A stretch of DNA of 64,000 nucleotides from Actinocatenispora sera. GTDB taxonomy: Bacteria > Actinomycetota > Actinomycetes > Mycobacteriales > Micromonosporaceae. The translations under genes and the position numbers were made by a program. Each line of letters begins with the position of its first letter. Position 1 is the stretch's first letter. The stretch covers positions 6,406,426 through 6,470,425 of the forward strand of contig NZ_AP023354.1 in the NCBI RefSeq assembly GCF_018324685.1, in the 5' to 3' direction. Below the pieces are notes generated by a model. The model was not told the DNA's origin. It saw nothing but the letters and a program-made list of their open reading frames with translations, and did no database searches. Below are positions 20,985 through 56,480 of the stretch, piece after piece.

Positions 20985-21873
20985 AAGGTTGTCCCGTAAT
21001 CGTTGGTCCGCTCGGTCGTTGACCTTGGTGTGGAGCAGACGATCAGGTCCGATCAGCCGCAGTGGATCCCGGTGTTCACCGGCCTGTCAGCCCGGCAGTT
21101 CGGCAAGCTGGTGGCCATCGTGGCTGGTCGCGGCGGACAGCAGACCGGCGCTGGCCGCCGGTGGGGGCTCCCGCTGGCCGACCGGGTGCTGTTGGTGGCC
21201 ACCTACTACCGCACCAACCTGACCCTGCGGCAGATCGCGCCGCTGTTCGGAGTATCGAAGTCGGCCGCCGGGCGCATCGTCGATCACCTGGCCCCACACC
21301 TGGTACTGGAGCCCCAGAGCCGCCGGCACCGACCCGACACGGTCCTGATCGTGGACGGCACGCTGGCGCCCACCCACGACCGGAACATGTCGGCCCGGTC
21401 GAAGAACTACCGGTACTCCACCAACCTGCAAGTGGCCATCGACGCCAACACCCGCCTGACCGTCGCGGTCGGAGATCCGTTGCCCGGCAACCGCAACGAC
21501 TGCCGCGCCTACACCGACTCCGGCGTCGACCAACAGTGCGCCGGCGCGGCGGTAATGGCCGACGGCGGCTACCAAGGCAACCCGGAGGTAATCATGCCCT
21601 ACCGCAAGCCCCGAGAGGGTGAACCGCCGCTGCCGCAGTGGAAACAAGACCTCAACACCGTCCACCGCCGTATCCGCGCCCGCGTCGAGCACTGCTTCGC
21701 CCACATGAAGTCCTGGAAGATCCTCCGCGACTGCCGCCGCAAACAACGAGGCGTCTGGTACGCCGCCGCCGGTATCGCGTTGATGCGCAACCTGACCATG
21801 GTCGTATGACCGGCCCGACGCGGCCGTGAAGTCCTTCCGCGTCAACCCATCAAGATCATTACGGGACAACCTT
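20985..21873 (+). mobile_element. IS5-family insertion sequence, complete
   Basis: An 889-base element with perfect 16-base terminal inverted repeats, AAGGTTGTCCCGTAAT (20985-21000) and its complement (21858-21873), flanked on both sides by TA (20983-20984 and 21874-21875), consistent with a 2-base target duplication. Without the element and one TA the target reads GCTAGC. It contains one intact transposase gene (21003-21809). Perfect ends and an intact gene suggest recent insertion. The right end lies inside the holA stop codon. Confidence 0.9.
21003..21809 (+). CDS. IS5-family DDE transposase
   Basis: A 268-residue transposase of the DDE superfamily (DDE_Tnp_4 type). The N-terminal helix-turn-helix (LTLRQIAPLFGVSKSAAGRIVDHL) binds the ends. 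The catalytic residues are the D of LIVDGTLAP, the D of MADGGYQG and the E of RARVEHCFAHMKSWK, so all three are present. The start at ATG/GTG near 21003 lies 2 bases inside the left inverted repeat; the exact start is unclear. The frame is intact from end to end. Confidence 0.93.
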   Translation: MVRSVVDLGVEQTIRSDQPQWIPVFTGLSARQFGKLVAIVAGRGGQQTGAGRRWGLPLADRVLLVATYYRTNLTLRQIAPLFGVSKSAAGRIVDHLAPHLVLEPQSRRHRPDTVLIVDGTLAPTHDRNMSARSKNYRYSTNLQVAIDANTRLTVAVGDPLPGNRNDCRAYTDSGVDQQCAGAAVMADGGYQGNPEVIMPYRKPREGEPPLPQWKQDLNTVHRRIRARVEHCFAHMKSWKILRDCRRKQRGVWYAAAGIALMRNLTMVV

Positions 21874-22829
21874 TAGCGGCTGCGGGCGCCGACAACGGCG
21901 AGAATGGCGCGTTCCAGCGCGTACCCCCGGTTGTCGGCACCGCCCTTGACCTCGGCGTTCGCCGCGGCAGCGGCATGCATCGCCTGCGCCAGCCCCTCCG
22001 GTGACCAGCCCCGGGCCTGCCGCTGGGCCCGCTCGATCTTCCATGCCGGCATGCCCAGCTTCGACGCCAACTGGTACGGGTTGCCCCGCACCCCAGCCAC
22101 CCGCGACACCGTGCGCACCCCGTCGGCCAGTGCATCGGCGATCGGCACCGGGTCGACACCGATCGCAAGCGCCCAGCGCAGCGACTCCAACGCCGCCGGC
22201 GAATCGCCGACCATCGCGGCGTCCGCGACGGTGAACCCGGTCACCTCCGACCGTCCCTGGTAGTAGCGGTTGACGATGTCGACCGTCAGCCGCCCGCCGG
22301 TGTCGGCGACCAGCTGCGCGCACGCCGAGGCCAGCTCGCGCAGATCGTTGCCCACCGCAGAGATCAACGCCTCCGCCGCATCCTCCGGGCAGCGGCCGCC
22401 GAGGCCACGCACCTCGTCGCGGACGAAGCTGACCCGCTCCCGCGGCCGGGTGATCCGTGCGGCGCGGACCACCTCGACGCCCGCCTTCTGCAGCCCGTCG
22501 GCAAGTGCCTTGCCCTTGTTGCCGCCGGCGTGGGTGAGCACCAGACAGATATCGTCGGCCGGCGCGGCGGCGTAGCCGAGCAGCGCCGCAGCCAGGTCCT
22601 TCTTGGCGTCCTGGGCACCGCGGATCACCACGACCTGACGGCCACCGAACAGCGACGGGCTGGTCAACGCCGCGAGCTCACCCGCCGTGAGCGCGCTGGC
22701 GTCTCGCTCGGCGGGCTGCGCATCGGGCTCGACCGCTCGGACCGCGGCGATCACGTCGGTCACGGCGCGCGCGGCGAGCAGTTCCTCGTCGCCGAGGATC
22801 AGGCGGATCGGTGGTGGTGTCTGGCTCAC
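21873..22829 (-). CDS. holA: DNA polymerase III subunit delta
   Basis: Clamp-loader delta subunit (318 residues), which opens the beta clamp. It begins with RLILGDEELLAARAVTDVI and contains VVVIRGAQDAKKDLAAALLGY, the helical domain with YYQGRSEVTGFTVADAAMVGDS, and a C-terminal domain ending RAILAVVGARSR. The GTG start overlaps the comEC stop (GTGA). Its stop codon TAA (21875-21873) is formed jointly by the target base pair TA and the first base of the IS element's inverted repeat; before insertion it would have been TAG at the same place, so the protein is unchanged. Confidence 0.93.
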   Translation of the reverse strand: MSQTPPPIRLILGDEELLAARAVTDVIAAVRAVEPDAQPAERDASALTAGELAALTSPSLFGGRQVVVIRGAQDAKKDLAAALLGYAAAPADDICLVLTHAGGNKGKALADGLQKAGVEVVRAARITRPRERVSFVRDEVRGLGGRCPEDAAEALISAVGNDLRELASACAQLVADTGGRLTVDIVNRYYQGRSEVTGFTVADAAMVGDSPAALESLRWALAIGVDPVPIADALADGVRTVSRVAGVRGNPYQLASKLGMPAWKIERAQRQARGWSPEGLAQAMHAAAAANAEVKGGADNRGYALERAILAVVGARSR

Positions 22830-25800
22830 GGCCCCATCCTGGCACGCCGCCGACCGGCCCGGATGCTGACCGCCGACCCGAGCGGGGTGATCGGCGCGTC
22901 ACACCCTCCCGCGACTCCGCCGGTGCGCCCGGCGACGGACGACCCGGCCGCCGATGGCCCGGTACGCGGGCAGCGACGGCGGCGCGACGAGCGGCCGGCA
23001 CGCCGCGTCATCGCCGGCGGCAACGCTCGGTCGGCGGGTGGTTGCCGTCCCGGTGGCGGGCCCCGTCGGGCGACGGCCAGCCCGTGCCCGGTGTCGACGA
23101 CCGCCACGTCGCCGTCCCGGTCGGTGCGCAGCACCCGGATGCCGGCCCCGGAGATCCTCGACAACAGTCCCGGGTTCGGGTGCCCGTAGTCGTTGTCCAC
23201 CCCCACCGACACGACCGCGACCTCGGGAGCCACCGCCGCGACGAAGCCCGGATCCTGATGCTTGCTCCCGTGGTGCGGCACCTTGAGCACGTCGGCATGC
23301 AGCGGCGCACCGTCGACCCGCAGCTCCTGCTGGAGTTCCGGGCCCGCGTCACCGGTCAGCAGGATCGACACCGAACCGACCACCGCCCGCAACACCACGC
23401 AGTTGTTGTTCGTGTCGGACTCGGTGCCGGTCATCGGCTCCGGCGGGCCCAGCGCGGTCACCGCCAGCATGCCCGCCCGGTAGTGCCAGCCGGCCGGGAC
23501 CGGGAACGGCCGCAGCCCGTGCGCGCCGGCGACCCGCTCGATGCGGGCCCGTCCGCCGCCGGTACCGCGAAAGCGGGACACCCCGATCGCGCCCACCCGC
23601 CGGCCATCGAACACACCCGCGACCCCGCTGACGTGGTCGGCGTCGTCGTGCGTGAACACCAGTAGCGGTACCGACCTGATGCCGAGCCGGCGCAGGCACC
23701 CGTCGATCGCCGTCGGTTCCGGACCGCTGTCGATGACCACGGCCTGACCCGGCGCCACCCGAAGCACCAGCCCGTCGCCCTGGCCGACGTCACAGGCGAC
23801 GAACACCCAGCGGTCCGGCGGCCAGCCACCGGCCACCCAGCGCACCGGGGCGGCGCCCACGATCACGCAGATGACCAGGACGAGCAGCAGGCGACGGGCG
23901 GTGCGGTGTCCGGCGAGAGCGATCGCGGCGACCAGGATCGCGGCCAGCAGGACGGCGCCGAGGACACCGACCGGCCACGGCGCCACGGCGGCCGGGGCAC
24001 CTGCCGTGGTGTGCGCGACCAGCACCAGCCAACGGCACGGCCACGCGGCGAGCCACGCGAGGGCATGCGCCGCCGTCGGCGAGATCGGCGAGACCACCGC
24101 GGCTGCCAGCCCCAGCACCGTGGCCGGTGCCACCGCGGGTTCGGCCAAGACGTTCGCCGGCACGGCAAGGAGGCCTACGGTGCCGGAGAAGCCGGCGATC
24201 ACCGGCGCGCAGGCGACGTGTGCGGCGGTGGACACCGCGACCACCTCGGCGATTCCGCGCGGCACGTGGCGTCGGCGCAGTGCATCCCGCCAGGCCGGCG
24301 CGAACAGCAGCAGACCGAGCGTGGCCAGCGCGGAGAGCACGAAGCCGAGTCGCAGCGCCAGCGCGGGATCGGCAAGCAGCAACAGCAGGACCGACGCCGC
24401 CAGGCCGGGGACCGCCGCCCGGGGGCGGTGCAGCGCCAGCGCGAGCAGCCCCAGGCCGCCCATCAGTGCGGCCCGCAGCACGCTCGGATCAGGCCGGACA
24501 AGCACCACGAACCCGACCGTGGTCGCCGCGCCGACCAGGGCGGCGACGCGCGGCCCGGCCCGCGCCCACCGCGCCGCCAGCAGGACAAACCCGAGCACGA
24601 CGGCGAGATTCGAGCCACTGACAGCCGTCAGGTGTGTCATGCCCGCCGCTGTGAAGTCGGCGTGCACGATCGGATCGAGCCGACTGGTGTCTCCGTCGAC
24701 CAGGCCCGGCAGCAGGCCACCCGGAGCCGCCGGCAGACCGCGGCACGCGGCCTGCAGACCGCCCCGGAGCCGGGCGGCAACCAGCTGGTACCACGGTGGA
24801 CGGCCGATGCGCCGGGGCGACTCGGTGATCGACAGGACCGCGACGGTGCCGTCGGCACGCTGCGGTGGCGTCAGCCGTGCCGTGACAGCGAGGCGCTGTC
24901 CCGGCAGCACGCTGCGCCAGGTCGGGTCGTTGCCGAACCCGATGACGGCCGCATGCGCCCGGACCGTGGGGCCACCCGCCACCGACTCGAAGCTGGTCAT
25001 CGTCGCCGGAACCAGCCAGGTCGAGCCGAACGCGCTGCCGGCGATGGCATGCGGATCGCCGGTGACGGTCAGCTCGGCGTGTACCAGCCGGTGCTTCCGG
25101 ATCGGGTTCGCCAGCGTCTCGAGCTGCGCGGGGTAGGTGCGTGCCGCGGTCGTCGCTGCCCCGCAGCCCGCACCGAGCAGCACCGACACCACCAACCGCA
25201 GCGCCACCGCGACCCAGCCCGGGGCACGGCCGCCCGGGCCGGAGCCGGGCCGGCCAGGGCCGTGGGCGCCGATATCGTGCGGGGCCGCACGTGGACCGGG
25301 GCCATGCTGGCCAGGACCATGCAGGCCGGGAAACTGCAGGCAGGGACCATGCGGGCAGGGACCATGCGGGCCGGGAAACTGCGGGCCGGGACCATGCGGG
25401 CCGGGACCATGCGGGCCGGGAAACTGCGGGCCGGGACCATGCGGGCCGGGACCATGCGGGCCGGGATCGGGCCGAGCGGCAGCCGGACCGCCAGCGTCAT
25501 GTCGACCGGCATGGTCGGCATGGTCGGCATGGCCGGCATGGTCGGCATGGCCGGCATGGCCGGCATGGCCGGCATGGCCGGCATGGCCGGCATGGCCGGC
25601 ATGGCCGGCATGGCCGGCATGGCCGGCATGGCCGGCGTCCGGCCGGCTGGCAGCACCCTGGCGGGTGCGTCGATGCGCGAGGATCCCGGCCGCGCCGGCC
25701 ATCGCGAACGCGAGCGCGGCGCCGGCCAGGGCTGCCGACGCCGGCAGCCGGATCGCCACCAACACGGCGAACCAGCAGCCGGCCGCCAATCCGACCAGCC

Positions 25801-25933
25801 GCAGATCCGGCCCGCGACGCGGCCGCTGCGGATCGGACGGCACAGGGCCGTGCTCATGCCCCGCGCCACGGGCACGGCCGCGGGGCGCCGGCCCCGGCGA
25901 GTTCCCCGGATCGCCGGCCGACGGCGCGCCCAT
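22826..25933 (-). CDS. comEC: ComEC/Rec2 DNA uptake channel with metallo-beta-lactamase domain
   Basis: A 1035-residue membrane protein that would carry single-stranded DNA across the membrane. It starts at ATG 25933, overlapping the comEA stop (TGATG). Transmembrane helices lie at about 50-65 and 68-87, then comes an unusual insert of two repeat tracts (99-141 and 154-213), another helix near 237-253, and an OB-like region. The competence domain follows (MTHLTAVSGSNLAVVLGFVLLA), then many helices and a C-terminal metallo-beta-lactamase domain (CDVGQGDGLVLR, FTHDDADHVSGVAGV, VPHHGSKHQD). Family length is usually 700-850, and the excess is partly the repeats. Downstream it overlaps holA by 4 bases. 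Confidence 0.92.
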   Translation of the reverse strand: MGAPSAGDPGNSPGPAPRGRARGAGHEHGPVPSDPQRPRRGPDLRLVGLAAGCWFAVLVAIRLPASAALAGAALAFAMAGAAGILAHRRTRQGAASRPDAGHAGHAGHAGHAGHAGHAGHAGHAGHAGHADHAGHADHADHAGRHDAGGPAAARPDPGPHGPGPHGPGPQFPGPHGPGPHGPGPQFPGPHGPCPHGPCLQFPGLHGPGQHGPGPRAAPHDIGAHGPGRPGSGPGGRAPGWVAVALRLVVSVLLGAGCGAATTAARTYPAQLETLANPIRKHRLVHAELTVTGDPHAIAGSAFGSTWLVPATMTSFESVAGGPTVRAHAAVIGFGNDPTWRSVLPGQRLAVTARLTPPQRADGTVAVLSITESPRRIGRPPWYQLVAARLRGGLQAACRGLPAAPGGLLPGLVDGDTSRLDPIVHADFTAAGMTHLTAVSGSNLAVVLGFVLLAARWARAGPRVAALVGAATTVGFVVLVRPDPSVLRAALMGGLGLLALALHRPRAAVPGLAASVLLLLLADPALALRLGFVLSALATLGLLLFAPAWRDALRRRHVPRGIAEVVAVSTAAHVACAPVIAGFSGTVGLLAVPANVLAEPAVAPATVLGLAAAVVSPISPTAAHALAWLAAWPCRWLVLVAHTTAGAPAAVAPWPVGVLGAVLLAAILVAAIALAGHRTARRLLLVLVICVIVGAAPVRWVAGGWPPDRWVFVACDVGQGDGLVLRVAPGQAVVIDSGPEPTAIDGCLRRLGIRSVPLLVFTHDDADHVSGVAGVFDGRRVGAIGVSRFRGTGGGRARIERVAGAHGLRPFPVPAGWHYRAGMLAVTALGPPEPMTGTESDTNNNCVVLRAVVGSVSILLTGDAGPELQQELRVDGAPLHADVLKVPHHGSKHQDPGFVAAVAPEVAVVSVGVDNDYGHPNPGLLSRISGAGIRVLRTDRDGDVAVVDTGHGLAVARRGPPPGRQPPADRALPPAMTRRAGRSSRRRRCPRTGPSAAGSSVAGRTGGVAGGCDAPITPLGSAVSIRAGRRRARMGP
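25295..25474 (-). repeat. Pro/Gly/His repeat tract inside comEC
   Basis: DNA encoding about residues 154-213 of ComEC, made of repeated PHGPG units punctuated by PQFPG (PHGPGPHGPGPQFPG recurs three times with drift). At DNA level these are 15-base units in groups of 45 bases, so they can expand in frame. Confidence 0.85.
25511..25639 (-). repeat. 9-bp tandem repeat encoding (His-Ala-Gly)n in comEC
   Basis: About 14 copies of a 9-base unit (CATGGCCGG on the plus strand) encode HAG/HAD triplets, ComEC residues 99-141, giving 14 histidines in about 43 residues. Some units read HAD. Being a multiple of three, expansion or contraction keeps the frame. Confidence 0.92.
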
Positions 25934-27498
25934 CAGACCGTCACCAGATCCTTGAGATCCGCGTACCGGGCGTCTCCGATGCCGCTGACCTGCTTGAGCT
26001 GCTCGACCGAGCGGAAGCCGCCGTGCTCGGTGCGGAACGAGATGATCCGACCGGCGAGCGTCGGACCGACCCCGGGCAGCGTGTCGAGCTGGTCGGCCGT
26101 GGCGGTGTTGAGGTTGACCTTGCTCGCCGGGTTCGCCGAGCCACCCGGGACACCGGCACCACCGGCGTCGGGCGGCGGGGTGACGCCGACCGCGATCTGT
26201 TCGCCGTCGACGAGCCGGCGAGCCTGGTTGAGCAGGCCGAGATCCACGCCCGGGAGCACACCGCCGGCCGCCCGCACCGCATCGGCGACCCGGGATCCCG
26301 CCGGTACCCGGACGACACCGGGATGCCGCACCTTGCCCACCACGGAGATCACCAGCTCGCTGCCGGCAGACGCGGACGGTGGGGCGGTGGGCGCGGCGGC
26401 CGGCGCTCGGGGCGGCTCGACCGGATCGGTGACCGGCCGCAGTCGCCACGCCACCACCCCGGCGGCCACCACTGCGACGACGGCCAGCACGACCAGGGCT
26501 CGCAGGCCGCGCCGCCCGGGATCGAGCAACGCGCGTCGGACGCCGAGCAGCCGGGCCGAACGGTCGTACCACCGGTCCGGTCGCGCCGACACCGCCGCGG
26601 CACCGGCCGGCTCGCTCGGCCCCGCACCGTCGAGGTCGACCACCTCGATGTCGCCGGCCGAGCCAACCCCGGTCGGCTCGGCCGAGGCGAGGTCACGGGT
26701 GTCGGCCGCTACCAGCTCGGACTCGGCGAGTCCATGAGGGTCGACCGAATCGGCCGCATGCGGCCCGAAGCCAGCGGGTTCGTCAACGCCGGCCGCGATC
26801 GGCTGGGGCCGGGTGGATGCACGGACCTCAGCCGGGGCGGACGGGGCCGGCTCGGCGCCGGCCGGTTCAGCGGGATCGGCCGATTCGACGAAGGCGGGCC
26901 GCTCGGATCGGGCCGGCCTGGACCCCGTCTCGGCGCCAGCGGACCCGACCGCCGTCTCGGCTCCGACCGGCCCCGGCACCGTCGGTGGGGAGGCAGCGGC
27001 CGGGGAGCCGATCAGCACGTTCCCGCGGGGATGCTCGTCGGCCGGGGCCGGGTGTCCGACCGGAGTCGACGGGTCGGCCGGGGTGGCGCGGTCGAAGTGC
27101 AGATGCCGTCGGTACGGGACGGAGCCCACGACGGTCCAACGACCCGTCACCGCGGCTCGGACCCGATCGTCGCCAGGATCGGCGCGGGCGGTCGTGGTCG
27201 CCGGTGTGGCAGCGACAGCGCCCGGGGCCGGCGGCGTCCCACCGTCGCCGGCCCCGGGCAGCGGCGAGCCCGGATCGGGAGCGCGCGGCGTGTCGCGCCC
27301 CGGATCCAGCGGTGGCAAGCCGCGCCCTGTTTTGAGTGGCAGCGGTGCTCGTGGCGTCGGGACGAGCGATCCGCTCCCGGGCCCGATCGCCCTGTCCGGC
27401 GGCGATCCAGGGCGTGCGGCCGGTGCGACCGGCAGCAGTCGGCGCAGTCGGAGACGGGTGGTGTCGGCGAGAACTTCGGCACGGCGGGAGGCGAACAC
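25933..27498 (-). CDS. comEA: ComEA-like helix-hairpin-helix DNA receptor
   Basis: A 521-residue protein with a long N-terminal cytoplasmic region (about 1-330) rich in Pro, Ala and Glu and of low complexity. One transmembrane helix follows (LRALVVLAVVAVVAAGVVAW, about 330-350), then an SLBB domain (ELVISVVGKVRHPGVVRVPAGSRV) and a C-terminal helix-hairpin-helix pair (KVNLNTATADQLDTLPGVGP, FRSVEQLKQVSGIGDARYADLKDLV). The HhH domain binds double-stranded DNA outside the membrane and hands it to ComEC. Family proteins are normally 200-300 residues, so the N-terminal extension is unusual. The GTG start at 27498 is the most upstream possibility and could be too long. Confidence 0.85.
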   Translation of the reverse strand: MFASRRAEVLADTTRLRLRRLLPVAPAARPGSPPDRAIGPGSGSLVPTPRAPLPLKTGRGLPPLDPGRDTPRAPDPGSPLPGAGDGGTPPAPGAVAATPATTTARADPGDDRVRAAVTGRWTVVGSVPYRRHLHFDRATPADPSTPVGHPAPADEHPRGNVLIGSPAAASPPTVPGPVGAETAVGSAGAETGSRPARSERPAFVESADPAEPAGAEPAPSAPAEVRASTRPQPIAAGVDEPAGFGPHAADSVDPHGLAESELVAADTRDLASAEPTGVGSAGDIEVVDLDGAGPSEPAGAAAVSARPDRWYDRSARLLGVRRALLDPGRRGLRALVVLAVVAVVAAGVVAWRLRPVTDPVEPPRAPAAAPTAPPSASAGSELVISVVGKVRHPGVVRVPAGSRVADAVRAAGGVLPGVDLGLLNQARRLVDGEQIAVGVTPPPDAGGAGVPGGSANPASKVNLNTATADQLDTLPGVGPTLAGRIISFRTEHGGFRSVEQLKQVSGIGDARYADLKDLVTV

Positions 27499-47725: not shown

Positions 47726-49645
47726 ATGGGTGTTCCCCTGCGCCGAGCCATGGTCGTCTCGGTCGCCGCATTGTCGGCTGCCGCCCTGACCTCACTCGGC
47801 CTCGCCCAGTCCGCCTGGGCCGCACCGGCAAGCAGCACGACCTCCGGTGTCCAGCGGGTCTGCGACGCGCCCGCCGCGCCGCACACCATGCACTGCATGG
47901 CGTTGAAGCGCACCGGCATCCACCCGGACCTGCCGTCCGGGTACGGGCCGACGGATCTGCAGAGCGCGTACAGCCTGCCGGCCAACGGCGGCGCCGGCAC
48001 GACCATCGCCATCGTGGACGCCTACGACGACCCGAACGCGGCCAGCGACCTCGCCGCGTACCGGTCGGCGTTCGGGCTGCCGGCCCTGACCTCCGGGCAG
48101 TTCCGGAAGGTCAACCAGAACGGGCAGACCAGCCCGCTGCCGTCGCCCGACCAGGGCTGGGCGGGCGAGATCTCGCTCGACCTGGACATGGTCTCGGCGA
48201 TCGCGCCGAAGGCCAACATCATCCTGGTGGAGGCGGACGCGCCGAGCGACACCGACCTGTACCAGGCGGAGGACGAGGCGGTGGCGCTGGGCGCCAAGTA
48301 CGTCTCGAACTCCTGGGGTGGCGGCGAGTCGTCCGGCCAGACCTCCGACGACCAGCACTTCAACCACCCCGGCGTCGCCATCACCGTCAGCTCCGGCGAC
48401 GACGGCCACGGCGCCGAGTACCCGGCCACGTCGAAGTACGTGACCGCGGTCGGCGGTACCTCGCTGTCGCGGTCCGGCAGCGGCTGGAGCGAGTCCGCGT
48501 GGAGCGGTGCCGGTTCGGGCTGCTCGTCCTACGACTCGAAGGCCAGCTGGCAGAACGTCAACACCGGATGCTCGAACCGGGCGGAGGCGGACGTGTCCGC
48601 GGTCGCCGACCCGAACACCGGCGTGGCGGTCTACCAGACCTACGGCGGCAGCGGCTGGGCCGTGTACGGCGGCACGTCGGCGTCCGCGCCGATCATCGCC
48701 TCGGTGTACGCGCTGGCCGGCACGCCCGGCGCCAGCGACTACCCGGCGAGCTACCCGTACGCGCACGCGTCGAGCCTCAACGACGTGACCAGCGGCAACA
48801 ACGGCAGCTGCGGCTCGCCGATGTGCTCGGCCGGCACCGGCTGGGACGGCCCGACCGGCCTCGGTACGCCGAACGGCACCGCCGCGTTCGCGGCGGGTGG
48901 CACCACGCCGCCCGGTGACGTGACGGTGTCCAACCCGGGCAACCAGAGCAACAAGGTCGGCGACTCGGTCAGCCTCCAGCTGTCCGCGTCGGGCGGCACC
49001 GCGCCGTACACCTGGTCGGTGACCGGGCTGCCGGCGGGCCTGTCCGCCTCCTCGTCCGGCAAGATCACCGGTAGCCCCACCACGGCCGGCACCTCGACCG
49101 TGAAGGCGACCGCGACCGACGCCGCCGGCAAGACCGGTACCGCGTCATTCTCCTGGGCGATCACCACCGGCGGTGGCGGCGGCACCTGCGGTAGCCAGCT
49201 GCTGGGCAACCCGGGCTTCGAGACGGGCTCGGCATCGCCGTGGTCGGCCTCGTCCGGCGTCGTGTCGTCGAACGCCGACGGCGGCGTCGCACACTCCGGC
49301 AACTACTACGCCTGGCTGGACGGCTACGGCACGTCGCACACCGACACCGTGAGCCAGACGGTCCAGGTACCGGCCGGCTGTGACACCGTGTCGTTCTCCT
49401 TCTACGTGTACATCTCCACGCAGGAGTCCGGCTCGACCCCGTACGACACGTTGACCGTCAAGGCCAACTCGGTCACCGTGGCGACGTACTCGAACGCCAA
49501 CGCCACCAGCGGTTACGTGAAGAAGTCGTTCACCCTGACCGGCGCGTCCGGCCTGTCGGTGAAGATCTCCTTCAGCGGCACCGAGGACTCGTACCTGGCG
49601 ACCTCGTTCCTGATCGACGACGTGGCGTTCACCACCGCGTCCTGA
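47726..49645 (+). CDS. Secreted S53-family (sedolisin) serine protease
   Basis: A 639-residue exported protease. Signal peptide: MVVSVAALSAAALTSLGLAQSAWA, cleaved near residue 32. The catalytic set of sedolisins is visible: Glu148 in QGWAGEISLDLD, Asp152 and Ser318 in GGTSASAP; the calcium-site-like segment GTGWDGPTGLGTPNG follows. The usual large propeptide is missing, with only about 45 residues before the domain. The C-terminus has an Ig-like He_PIG domain (PGDVTVSNPGNQSNKVGDSVSLQL, about 396-485) and a jelly-roll-like domain (NPGFETGSASPWSASSGVVS to the end) that may bind polysaccharide. Confidence 0.88.
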   Translation: MGVPLRRAMVVSVAALSAAALTSLGLAQSAWAAPASSTTSGVQRVCDAPAAPHTMHCMALKRTGIHPDLPSGYGPTDLQSAYSLPANGGAGTTIAIVDAYDDPNAASDLAAYRSAFGLPALTSGQFRKVNQNGQTSPLPSPDQGWAGEISLDLDMVSAIAPKANIILVEADAPSDTDLYQAEDEAVALGAKYVSNSWGGGESSGQTSDDQHFNHPGVAITVSSGDDGHGAEYPATSKYVTAVGGTSLSRSGSGWSESAWSGAGSGCSSYDSKASWQNVNTGCSNRAEADVSAVADPNTGVAVYQTYGGSGWAVYGGTSASAPIIASVYALAGTPGASDYPASYPYAHASSLNDVTSGNNGSCGSPMCSAGTGWDGPTGLGTPNGTAAFAAGGTTPPGDVTVSNPGNQSNKVGDSVSLQLSASGGTAPYTWSVTGLPAGLSASSSGKITGSPTTAGTSTVKATATDAAGKTGTASFSWAITTGGGGGTCGSQLLGNPGFETGSASPWSASSGVVSSNADGGVAHSGNYYAWLDGYGTSHTDTVSQTVQVPAGCDTVSFSFYVYISTQESGSTPYDTLTVKANSVTVATYSNANATSGYVKKSFTLTGASGLSVKISFSGTEDSYLATSFLIDDVAFTTAS

Positions 49646-49693: not shown

Positions 49694-49694
49694 T

Positions 49695-49938
49695 CGTCGA
49701 TCAAGGGCCCAGGCATCGTCGATCAAGGGCTCACCTCGTTGACCAAGGACTCGCGTCGTTGATCAAGGACTCGCGTCGTCGATCAAGGGCTCACGTCGTC
49801 GATCAAGGACTCGCGTCGTCGACCAAGGCTCACGTCGTCGACCAAGGGCCTAGGCATCGTCGATCAAGGACTCGCGTCGTCGATCAAGGGCTCACGTCGT
49901 TGACCAAGGGCTCACGTCGTTGACCAAGGGCTCGCGGC
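49695..49938. repeat. About 12 copies of a 20-bp repeat, CGTYGAYCAAGG type
   Basis: Tandem units of 19-22 bases such as CGTCGATCAAGGACTCGCGT and CGTTGACCAAGGGCTCACGT, with T/C variants at the Y positions. It sits between the convergent protease and methyltransferase genes. Past the array are single inverted versions (CCCTTGATCAAC and CCTTGATCAAC near 49967-49997), so the region could fold into many alternative hairpins. Confidence 0.9.
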
Positions 49939-50019: not shown

Positions 50020-51297
50020 TCAGCGGCGGGCGACGAGGAAGCGGCCGAGCGCGGGCAGGCTGCCGTCGGCGAGCCGACGCGCCTCGGTGTCGCGCACCCG
50101 GCGGGCGACGTCGTTCGCCACCGGGGTGTCGGCGAGCCGCTGCGCGACCATCCGCCACAGCCCGATCGTCGGCTGGTCGGTGACGGTCAGCCCGGCGGCC
50201 TGCAGCGCGGCGACGATGTCGGCACCGGTGTGCAGCGGCCGGTGCGCCGCCTCCTCCGGCGACTCGTGCCCGCTCGGTACGAAGCTGTCCTGCCAGCGCT
50301 GCCACGGGTCGGTCGGCCGTGGCCGTCCCTCGTCGTCCTCCGGCTCGGCCGCGGCGACGCCGGCGGCGGCGAGCAGGTCGACCGCGTCGTACAGGAACCG
50401 CGCGGCCGCTTCGTTCGCGCGTTCCCGGGCGAACTCCTCCAGTACCAGCACGCCGGAGGGCGTCAGCAGGTCGAGCGCGTGCTCGATCGCGCCGGGCAGG
50501 TCCTCGATGTGGTGCAGCGAGCGGGTGAACAGCACCGCGTCGTACCGGCCGGGCGCCCGATGGTCGCGCAACTCGGCGTTGACCACCTCCAGGCCGCGCT
50601 CGGCCGCGGTCGCCGCGGAGTCCGGGTCCGGTTCGATCGCGGTGACCCGGTAGCCGGCACCGGCCAGCGCGGCCGCCAGCGCACCGAGCCCGGCACCGAC
50701 CTCGCAGATTGCCGCCGGCGGCTCGGGCAGTACCGGTCGCAGCAGCGCCATGGTGTCCGGCACCGCGAGCGCGGTCAGGTCGATGTGCACCGGCAGGTAC
50801 GGATGGTGCCCGCCGTTCCCGTGGCCGTGCCCGTGCCCGCGGCCGCCGGATGGGGCGCCGCCGCCGTGACCGCGGGATGGGGCGCCGCCGTGGCCGTGCC
50901 GCCGCAGGCCGCCGCGCTGGTGAGCGCCGGCCTCCGACGACCCGTCGACAGCACCCGGCTCGGACGAGCTGTCGACAGCGCCCGACTCGGACCAGCCGGC
51001 GGTAGCGCCCGACTCGGACCAGCTGGCGGTAGCGCCCGACTCGGACGGGCCGGCGGTAGCGCCCGACTCGGACCAGCTGGCGGTAGCGCCCGACTCGGAC
51101 CAGCTGGCGGTAGCGCCCGACTCGGACCAGCTGGCGGTAGCGCCCGGCTCCGACGAGCCGGCGGTAGCGCCCGACTCGGACGAGCCGGCGGTAGCGCCCG
51201 GTTCGGACCAGCTGGCGGTGGCACCCGGCTCCGACGAGCTGTCGGTTGCGCCGGGCTCGGGGGAGCTGTCGGTTGCACCGTGCGGGTGAGCGTCCAT
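50020..51297 (-). CDS. Class I methyltransferase with N-terminal 9-residue repeats
   Basis: A 425-residue protein. Residues 7-123 are 13 copies of a 9-residue repeat of the type GATASWSES, followed by a Gly/His-rich linker (HGHGHGNGGHH). The C-terminal 250 residues are a SAM-dependent methyltransferase fold: motif I ICEVGAGLGALAAAL at about residue 195, IEPDPDS, and YDAVLFTRSLHHIEDL. Such enzymes methylate small molecules or RNA/protein; I cannot tell which. The start is ATG 51297 in preference to a frame 40 codons longer. It is convergent with the protease gene. Confidence 0.8.
   Translation of the reverse strand: MDAHPHGATDSSPEPGATDSSSEPGATASWSEPGATAGSSESGATAGSSEPGATASWSESGATASWSESGATASWSESGATAGPSESGATASWSESGATAGWSESGAVDSSSEPGAVDGSSEAGAHQRGGLRRHGHGGAPSRGHGGGAPSGGRGHGHGHGNGGHHPYLPVHIDLTALAVPDTMALLRPVLPEPPAAICEVGAGLGALAAALAGAGYRVTAIEPDPDSAATAAERGLEVVNAELRDHRAPGRYDAVLFTRSLHHIEDLPGAIEHALDLLTPSGVLVLEEFARERANEAAARFLYDAVDLLAAAGVAAAEPEDDEGRPRPTDPWQRWQDSFVPSGHESPEEAAHRPLHTGADIVAALQAAGLTVTDQPTIGLWRMVAQRLADTPVANDVARRVRDTEARRLADGSLPALGRFLVARR
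50929..51279 (-). repeat. 27-bp coding repeats in the methyltransferase
   Basis: Thirteen in-frame 27-base units encode GAT(A/D)(S/G)(S/W/P)SE(P/S/A) repeats. Several neighbouring units are near-identical at DNA level, so copy number should vary between strains without breaking the reading frame. Confidence 0.9.
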
Positions 51298-51381
51298 GGC
51301 CGCATTCTGCCCGCCGTGCGCGGCCGGACCGGTGGTACCGGGCCGGAACGTTCCCGGCACCGGTACGAGCGTGCCGGAGCC

Positions 51382-51440
51382 TTGACATCCGACCTTTGAC
51401 TGCGCAATTGTGCTCAATCATTGCCTGATGCGACCAGCTT
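51382..51440 (+). promoter_or_regulatory. Promoter/operator region of the alpha-galactosidase gene
   Basis: An AT-richer stretch upstream of the gene contains TTGACA near 51382 and, about 15 bases on, a dyad-like segment TGCGCAATTGTGCTCA around 51400-51415, resembling sugar-responsive LacI/GalR-type operators. The core is not a perfect palindrome, so this is tentative. Confidence 0.4.
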
Positions 51441-56310: not shown

Positions 56311-56480
56311 AGGGTGACCGCCGCGCCCGTCGCACCGGCGGGGTGAATCGTCGCGCCCGTCGTACCGGCGGGGTGAATCGTCGCGCCCGTCGTACCGGCG
56401 GGGTGAATCGTCGCGCCCGTCGTACCGGCGGGGTGAATCGTCGCGCCCGTCGTACCGGCGGGGTGAGTCGTCGCGCCCGG
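56311..56480. repeat. 30-bp tandem repeat, about 5.5 copies
   Basis: Exact 30-base period; units begin at 56311 (variant), 56341, 56371, 56401, 56431 and 56461 (partial). The unit contains GGGGTGAATCGTCGCGCCCG and TCGTACCGGC, and the central four copies are identical. It occupies the divergent promoter region between the GNAT and RpiB-like genes. Confidence 0.92.

Follow-up and report, generated by a model that had tools for sequence, protein, structure and literature searches.

The comEC gene of Actinocatenispora sera lies within a 64,000-nucleotide stretch of the genome (here called the window; positions below refer to it unless stated otherwise), and two tracts of short repeats interrupt its N-terminal part. 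The question raised by this locus is whether the tracts represent a conserved device of the DNA-import channel or repeat growth that the protein tolerates.

The first tract is a 9-bp array on the minus strand (25505 to 25630; TRF edges, 25506 to 25636) that comprises 14 in-frame units, 11 encoding HAG and 3 encoding HAD, at amino acids (aa) 102 to 143; TRF assigned it 14.6 copies, 96% matches, and a score of 241. The second tract, also on the minus strand (25295 to 25459; TRF edges, 25296 to 25466; aa 159 to 213), is a 15-bp array of 11 in-frame units of the PHGPG or PQFPG type, scoring 230, or 293 when taken as a 45-bp higher-order unit. Its units run in the order PHGPG, PHGPG, PQFPG, PHGPG, PHGPG, PQFPG, PHGPC, PHGPC, LQFPG, LHGPG, and QHGPG, with QFP at each third unit as far as the ninth and the last two units following thereafter. 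Both arrays are head to tail, with periods (9 and 15/45 bp) divisible by three. The first-pass annotation had described two in-frame repeat blocks between predicted transmembrane (TM) helices of ComEC and a density of 14 histidines in 43 residues. TRF and the reading frame confirmed the blocks, which lie between helices 2 and 3, and a count over the densest stretch of the protein returned 14 histidines within 43 residues. Tandem arrays are hard to assemble, and both tracts could in principle be assembly errors. We consider this extremely unlikely, because the genome is a single contig of 7.04 Mb, the units vary in an ordered manner (HAD toward one end and the regular spacing of QFP), and a PHGPG block occupies the corresponding position in A. 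comari, which is a separate record.

comEC spans 22826 to 25933 on the minus strand, with its ATG at 25933 according to the open reading frame coordinates, and encodes 1,035 aa. It is preceded by comEA (25933 to 27498, minus strand; SLBB and helix-hairpin-helix by family profiles) and followed by a holA-like gene for a DNA polymerase III delta subunit (21873 to 22829, minus strand; PF21694). By these coordinates, comEC overlaps its neighbors on both sides, the stop of comEA at its own start and the start of the holA-like gene at its own end. The competence channel domain (PF03772) was matched with 150.3 bits at aa 411 to 674, and a C-terminal metallo-beta-lactamase domain (PF00753) was matched with 29.9 bits (cutoff, 22.7) at aa 717 to 890. 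The domain model TIGR00360 passed its cutoff (56.1 against 36.5), and the ComEC_Rec2 equivalog TIGR00361 reached 138.2 bits, under its cutoff of 190.05, which weakens a claim of equivalence and leaves the assignment to the ComEC domain family unaffected. The protein encoded directly upstream carries SLBB and HHH_3 and scored 58 bits with TIGR00426 (over 53.1) and 76.8 with TIGR01259 (under 152.35). The top fold match of the ComEC model was 9ic4, a ComEC nuclease domain (E value, 5.1e-15). Full-length ComEC was absent among the best 50 fold matches listed, and solved full-length ComEC structures were found by a sequence search. Judged from its sequence, the protein is ComEC-like, with comEA adjoining. 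In Micrococcus luteus, comEA and comEC are cotranscribed and both are required for transformation (PMC8467076); ComEC is also the subject of a paper in NAR from 2025 (PMC12455585). As a separate observation, the C-terminal tail of A. sera ComEC (22829 to 23059) is a low-confidence region that extends into the start of the holA-like gene, and the protein is longer than that of A. comari (953 aa).

The AlphaFold model of A. sera ComEC (37 sequences; mean pLDDT, 68; pTM, 0.56) placed helices at aa 45 to 60 and 65 to 95 (TM1 and TM2; 25649 to 25801, minus strand) and at aa 240 to 270 (TM3; 25124 to 25216, minus strand). The Pfam OB-fold model (DUF4131) gave no match at an E value of ≤0.001; the structure model shows beta-strands at aa 283 to 369 (24827 to 25087, minus strand), the position of the OB fold, and it is this position, together with the literature, that suggests an OB identity. 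Profile matches delimited the TM2-TM3 loop at aa 87 to 238 (152 aa; 25220 to 25675, minus strand), with helix 2 extending to aa 95 in the model. Residues 104 to 235 had pLDDT values below 50 and no structure and were flanked by helices. The loop that holds both tracts thus is predicted to be disordered.

We compared the locus across four genomes of the genus, one per species (A. sera, A. comari, and the genomes designated G003 and G002). The ComEC protein of A. comari (NZ_BOPO01000056, L009) is 95% identical to that of A. sera over aligned positions and has a PHGPG block in the same loop. It differs in that the HAG position is occupied by CAT GCC GAC CGT GCC GGT (HAD RAG), which amounts to two degenerate units, and the second block consists of nine PHGPG-type units, every one with HG and none with QF, in a protein of 953 aa. 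Both tracts are absent from comEC of G003 and G002, in which the span from TM1 to TM3 is 81 and 73 aa, respectively, compared with 218 aa in A. sera. The HAG expansion therefore is private to A. sera among the four genomes, and the histidine-rich segment is not kept in the orthologues. The suggestion that copy number can change without breaking the frame holds between species, with 14 HAx units in A. sera against 2 degenerate ones in A. comari and 11 PHGPG-type units against 9.

Substitution rates were compared region by region. Between A. sera and A. comari, dN/dS was 0.68 in the loop (106 aligned codons, a value that rests on the alignment of repeats), 0.21 in TM1-2 (44 codons), 0.15 in TM3 plus the OB region, 0.05 in the channel, and 0.09 in the nuclease. 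The corresponding values for TM1-2, TM3 plus OB, channel, and nuclease were 0.52, 0.24, 0.12, and 0.12 against G003 and 0.51, 0.61, 0.17, and 0.24 against G002, both of which are more distant than A. comari; the loop had too few aligned codons for a value in these two comparisons. By this measure the channel and nuclease parts are well kept, with weaker conservation of the N-terminal helices and the OB region. Within the arrays of A. sera, the differences of units from their consensus were 1 silent and 3 changing in the HAx block and 3 silent and 14 changing in the PHGPG block. The nine PHGPG-type units of A. comari showed 7 silent and 6 changing differences (13:32 possible), and histidine was present in 9 of 9. 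These silent differences and the retained histidine hint at some constraint on the PHGPG block of A. comari and run counter to pure neutrality there, although the numbers are small.

In order to determine how common such loops are, we turned to the family as a whole. PF03772 was present in 147 of 150 Micromonosporaceae genomes. The census took in the upstream coding regions of 138 of these 147 and of three other genomes of the genus (L009, L107, and L108), giving 141 loci. Loop length was defined as the distance between matches to two profile models (TM1-TM2 and TM3-OB), which replaced a regular-expression measurement that had reached 43 of 138 loci, and was obtained for 131 of the 141 loci, or 132 with A. 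sera. The median was 10.5 aa; 83 loops were of 20 aa or fewer, 26 were of 21 to 50 aa, 16 were of 51 to 100 aa, and 7 exceeded 100 aa. About a quarter of the lengths are at or below 1 aa and reflect overlapping profile edges, and lengths are overstated in L250, L160, L162, L170, L228, and L274, where the second model starts late and the loop enters helix 3. The A. sera loop (152 aa) is the second longest, after that of L217 (198 aa; presumably Asanoa siamensis).

Strong arrays were concentrated in this loop. TRF was applied to the region that starts at TM1 and takes in the whole OB position, and each array was assigned by its midpoint, with a margin of 15 bases. At a score of ≥100 there were 17 arrays, of which the loop, with 9,972 bp, held 16 and the flanks, with 86,724 bp, held 1. 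All 16 loop arrays had periods divisible by three, and they belonged to 15 species in 7 genera. Lower thresholds diluted the concentration (24 in the loop versus 6 outside at ≥70; 40 versus 61 at ≥40). Some of the enrichment is inherent, because an array adds to the length of the loop in which it lies; moreover, the arrays of L183 and L211 fall within hydrophobic stretches that are short and border a helix, and the L250 array was assigned to the loop by an edge that enters helix 3. The earlier statement that known ComEC proteins lack such inserts does not apply to this family, as 15 of 132 Micromonosporaceae ComEC proteins have an array in this loop that scores ≥100.

By eye, the translated units were unlike between genera (HAG/PHGPG, LGDVPRGPRN, WPRQRV, ERESLERYGP, GRLGGA, SRLPIR, and others). 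A DNA comparison of 15 loops (14 with short flanks) returned 13 similar pairs at an E value of ≤1e-4, 8 within genera and 5 between genera. Some units are plainly related within genera (L173 and L176; A. comari and A. sera), so the 15 species do not represent 15 independent events. Four of the between-genus matches were of 27 to 47 bases and may correspond to the conserved beginning of helix 3; the fifth, of 98 bases at 74% (A. comari and L209), may be a chance likeness of GC-rich repeats. Apart from this comparison, we noted that the IAVAASLG..RW units in the ComEC loop of L188 (G089) resemble copies of the helix 3 start, as if grown from helix 3 sequence.

Reporter fusions in Bacillus subtilis ComEC located the N loop, which includes the OB fold, on the outer side of the membrane (PMC5031224, citing Draskovic and Dubnau). 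A single helix lies between the TM2-TM3 loop and the OB domain, and with the latter outside, the loop should be inside. All 50 loops of ≥20 aa carried a net positive charge, and the loop was more positive than the beta-domain side in 49 of 49 (A. sera is outside this count). Helix count, charge, and the published OB position together indicate that the loop most likely is cytosolic; an extracellular loop was judged unlikely on the same three grounds.

The uniform positive charge, and the recurrence of strong arrays at this one place, might also be read as signs of a flexible basic tether where the channel opens to the cytosol, a loop of any sequence that would bind emerging single-stranded DNA or partner proteins and that would evolve rapidly through repeat growth. 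However, basic loops are expected at the cytosolic side of any membrane protein, the A. sera loop is nearly neutral (net charge of +2 over 152 aa), and in 83 of 132 relatives the loop measures no more than 20 aa, so that a long one is dispensable. We therefore regard a tether as unlikely.

A different role was suggested by the histidines themselves: the tract could serve in the cytosol as a functional segment for binding zinc, copper, or nickel, either as a metal buffer or to couple DNA uptake to metal. Its 14 histidines per 43 residues are in line with such a segment, and the pattern scan also caught HADHAG/HAGHAG-like tails in proteins of other bacteria, namely, L082, which we take to be a ZnuA-like protein, and L083, L085, and L086, presumably P-type ATPase-like proteins. 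By analogy with similar tails in zinc/copper-type transport proteins, metal binding by the tract is chemically plausible, and a peptide copy of the loop may well bind metal in vitro. The distribution of the tract argues against a function, however. A. comari has just the two degenerate units of the HAG block, G003 and G002 have none, and this near-absence in the closest relative speaks against a conserved role. Histidine richness is confined to A. sera and A. comari among the 50 loops of ≥20 aa, of which these two are the most histidine rich, with little histidine in the remainder. No metal gene was found among the four neighboring proteins scanned (ComEC, ComEA, the holA-like protein, and a histidine phosphatase). 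A metal-binding function is improbable on this evidence, and it is very unlikely that the two ideas combine, i.e., that the loop is a fast-evolving tether repeatedly rebuilt by repeats and that in A. sera its histidine tract binds metal and renders import metal responsive. The functional interpretation of the tract put forward at the outset is mostly unsupported.

We also considered the arrays against the background of the genome. Twenty evenly spaced 20-kb stretches of the same genome (400 kb in total) contained 158 nonoverlapping TRF arrays, 10 of score ≥200, 3 of ≥240, and none of ≥290. The window contained five nonoverlapping arrays of ≥240 and three of ≥290. Against this sample, the comEC arrays (scores of 293 and 241) are more than chance would give. 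Strong arrays are uncommon in the genome sample, yet the window is rich in them, and comEC is one of several places there. Neither unit of comEC proved to be a dispersed element. A 27-base pattern of three HAG units (2 mismatches) had 12 overlapping matches genome-wide, every one within the comEC array, and its control matched none, so the HAG unit was rejected as a dispersed DNA signal. A 30-base PHGPG pattern (3 mismatches) matched 19 places (8 within comEC, 9 within a single other gene, located at 6.928 Mb, and 2 at further sites), with 5 for the backward control; a dispersed PHGPG family was likewise rejected.

Several other arrays were recorded in passing. A 27-bp array of 11.5 copies at 50950 to 51260 encodes GATASWSES-like repeats followed by an HGHG-rich stretch and sits in the N-terminal linker of a methyltransferase (50020 to 51417, minus strand; PF13489). 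Outside the window, a large open frame of at least 1,333 aa (L110; G000:C1:6926000-6930000; array at 6927815 to 6927964) consists in part of fifteen-base PHGAG/PQGAG units and had no Pfam match at an E value of ≤0.01; a frame in G003 (L112) resembles it and has PHGAGPQSAD units instead. In-frame linker arrays thus occur in other genes of A. sera, namely, the methyltransferase and the large PHGAG/PQGAG frame. A 20-bp repeat whose core is CGTCGATCAAGG occurs in about 12 copies at 49694 to 49933, downstream of a frame that ends at 49645, and a 20-bp array with CCTTGATCAAC occurs elsewhere in the genome (L122, 12771 to 12883); the two perhaps belong to one dispersed repeat family. A 30-bp array of 5.3 copies with 98% matches (TRF) was found at 56322 to 56479.

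We consider it likely that the two tracts are in-frame minisatellites that grew by slippage or unequal recombination within a TM2-TM3 linker that is disordered, cytosolic, and permissive, in an otherwise well-kept ComEC protein. Slipped-strand mispairing or unequal recombination would expand the 9-bp and 15-bp units, and units that keep the frame would be tolerated where the linker has no fold to disturb. A predicted disorder and a tolerance of length in the linker would account for the strong arrays found there and hardly ever in the adjoining helices and beta domain. Replication slippage would fit three features: the short frame-keeping units, the large difference between species that starts from a seed of two units, and the contrast between identical units in a run at one end and varied ones at the other. 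Slippage, the cytosolic side of the loop, and near-neutrality are inferred. The A. sera tract has the look of repeat expansion that the protein tolerates, not of a conserved device.

Among the matches listed for ComEC with tandem repeats in the literature, no title dealt with repeats inside ComEC, and the main text of a paper on ComEC evolution (PMC6299819) is without words beginning "insertion," "repeat," or "histidine." Within this limited search of titles and the starts of abstracts, no account of dissimilar arrays clustering in a single loop of ComEC was encountered. The arrays reveal a single loop of this conserved channel for DNA import at which in-frame minisatellites have grown recurrently in the Micromonosporaceae. 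The loop marks a place where ComEC seems tolerant of insertions, which would be useful for tags or topology reporters, and if the repeat loop affected uptake, it would provide a simple natural dial for transformation. The locus also cautions that a striking low-complexity tract need not imply function.

The arrays of A. sera can be set beside other known sequences. The ComEC protein of Asanoa siamensis (L039) and the other array-bearing ComEC proteins of the Micromonosporaceae likewise have in-frame tandem repeats in their TM2-TM3 loop but have different units (e.g., LGDVPRGPRN), which are rich in arginine rather than histidine. The histidine-rich tails of zinc/copper-type transport proteins share the HAGHAG/HADHAG letters, but they sit in metal-transport proteins, whereas the A. 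sera tract sits in ComEC and is private to one species. In-frame intragenic repeats are a known general kind, and the comEC arrays resemble the minisatellites of this kind in disordered linkers in being head to tail, in having a period divisible by three, and in varying in unit number among relatives. Compared with these, the comEC arrays differ in residing in a DNA-uptake channel protein, in forming two adjoining arrays, and in that one of the two is unusually rich in histidine.
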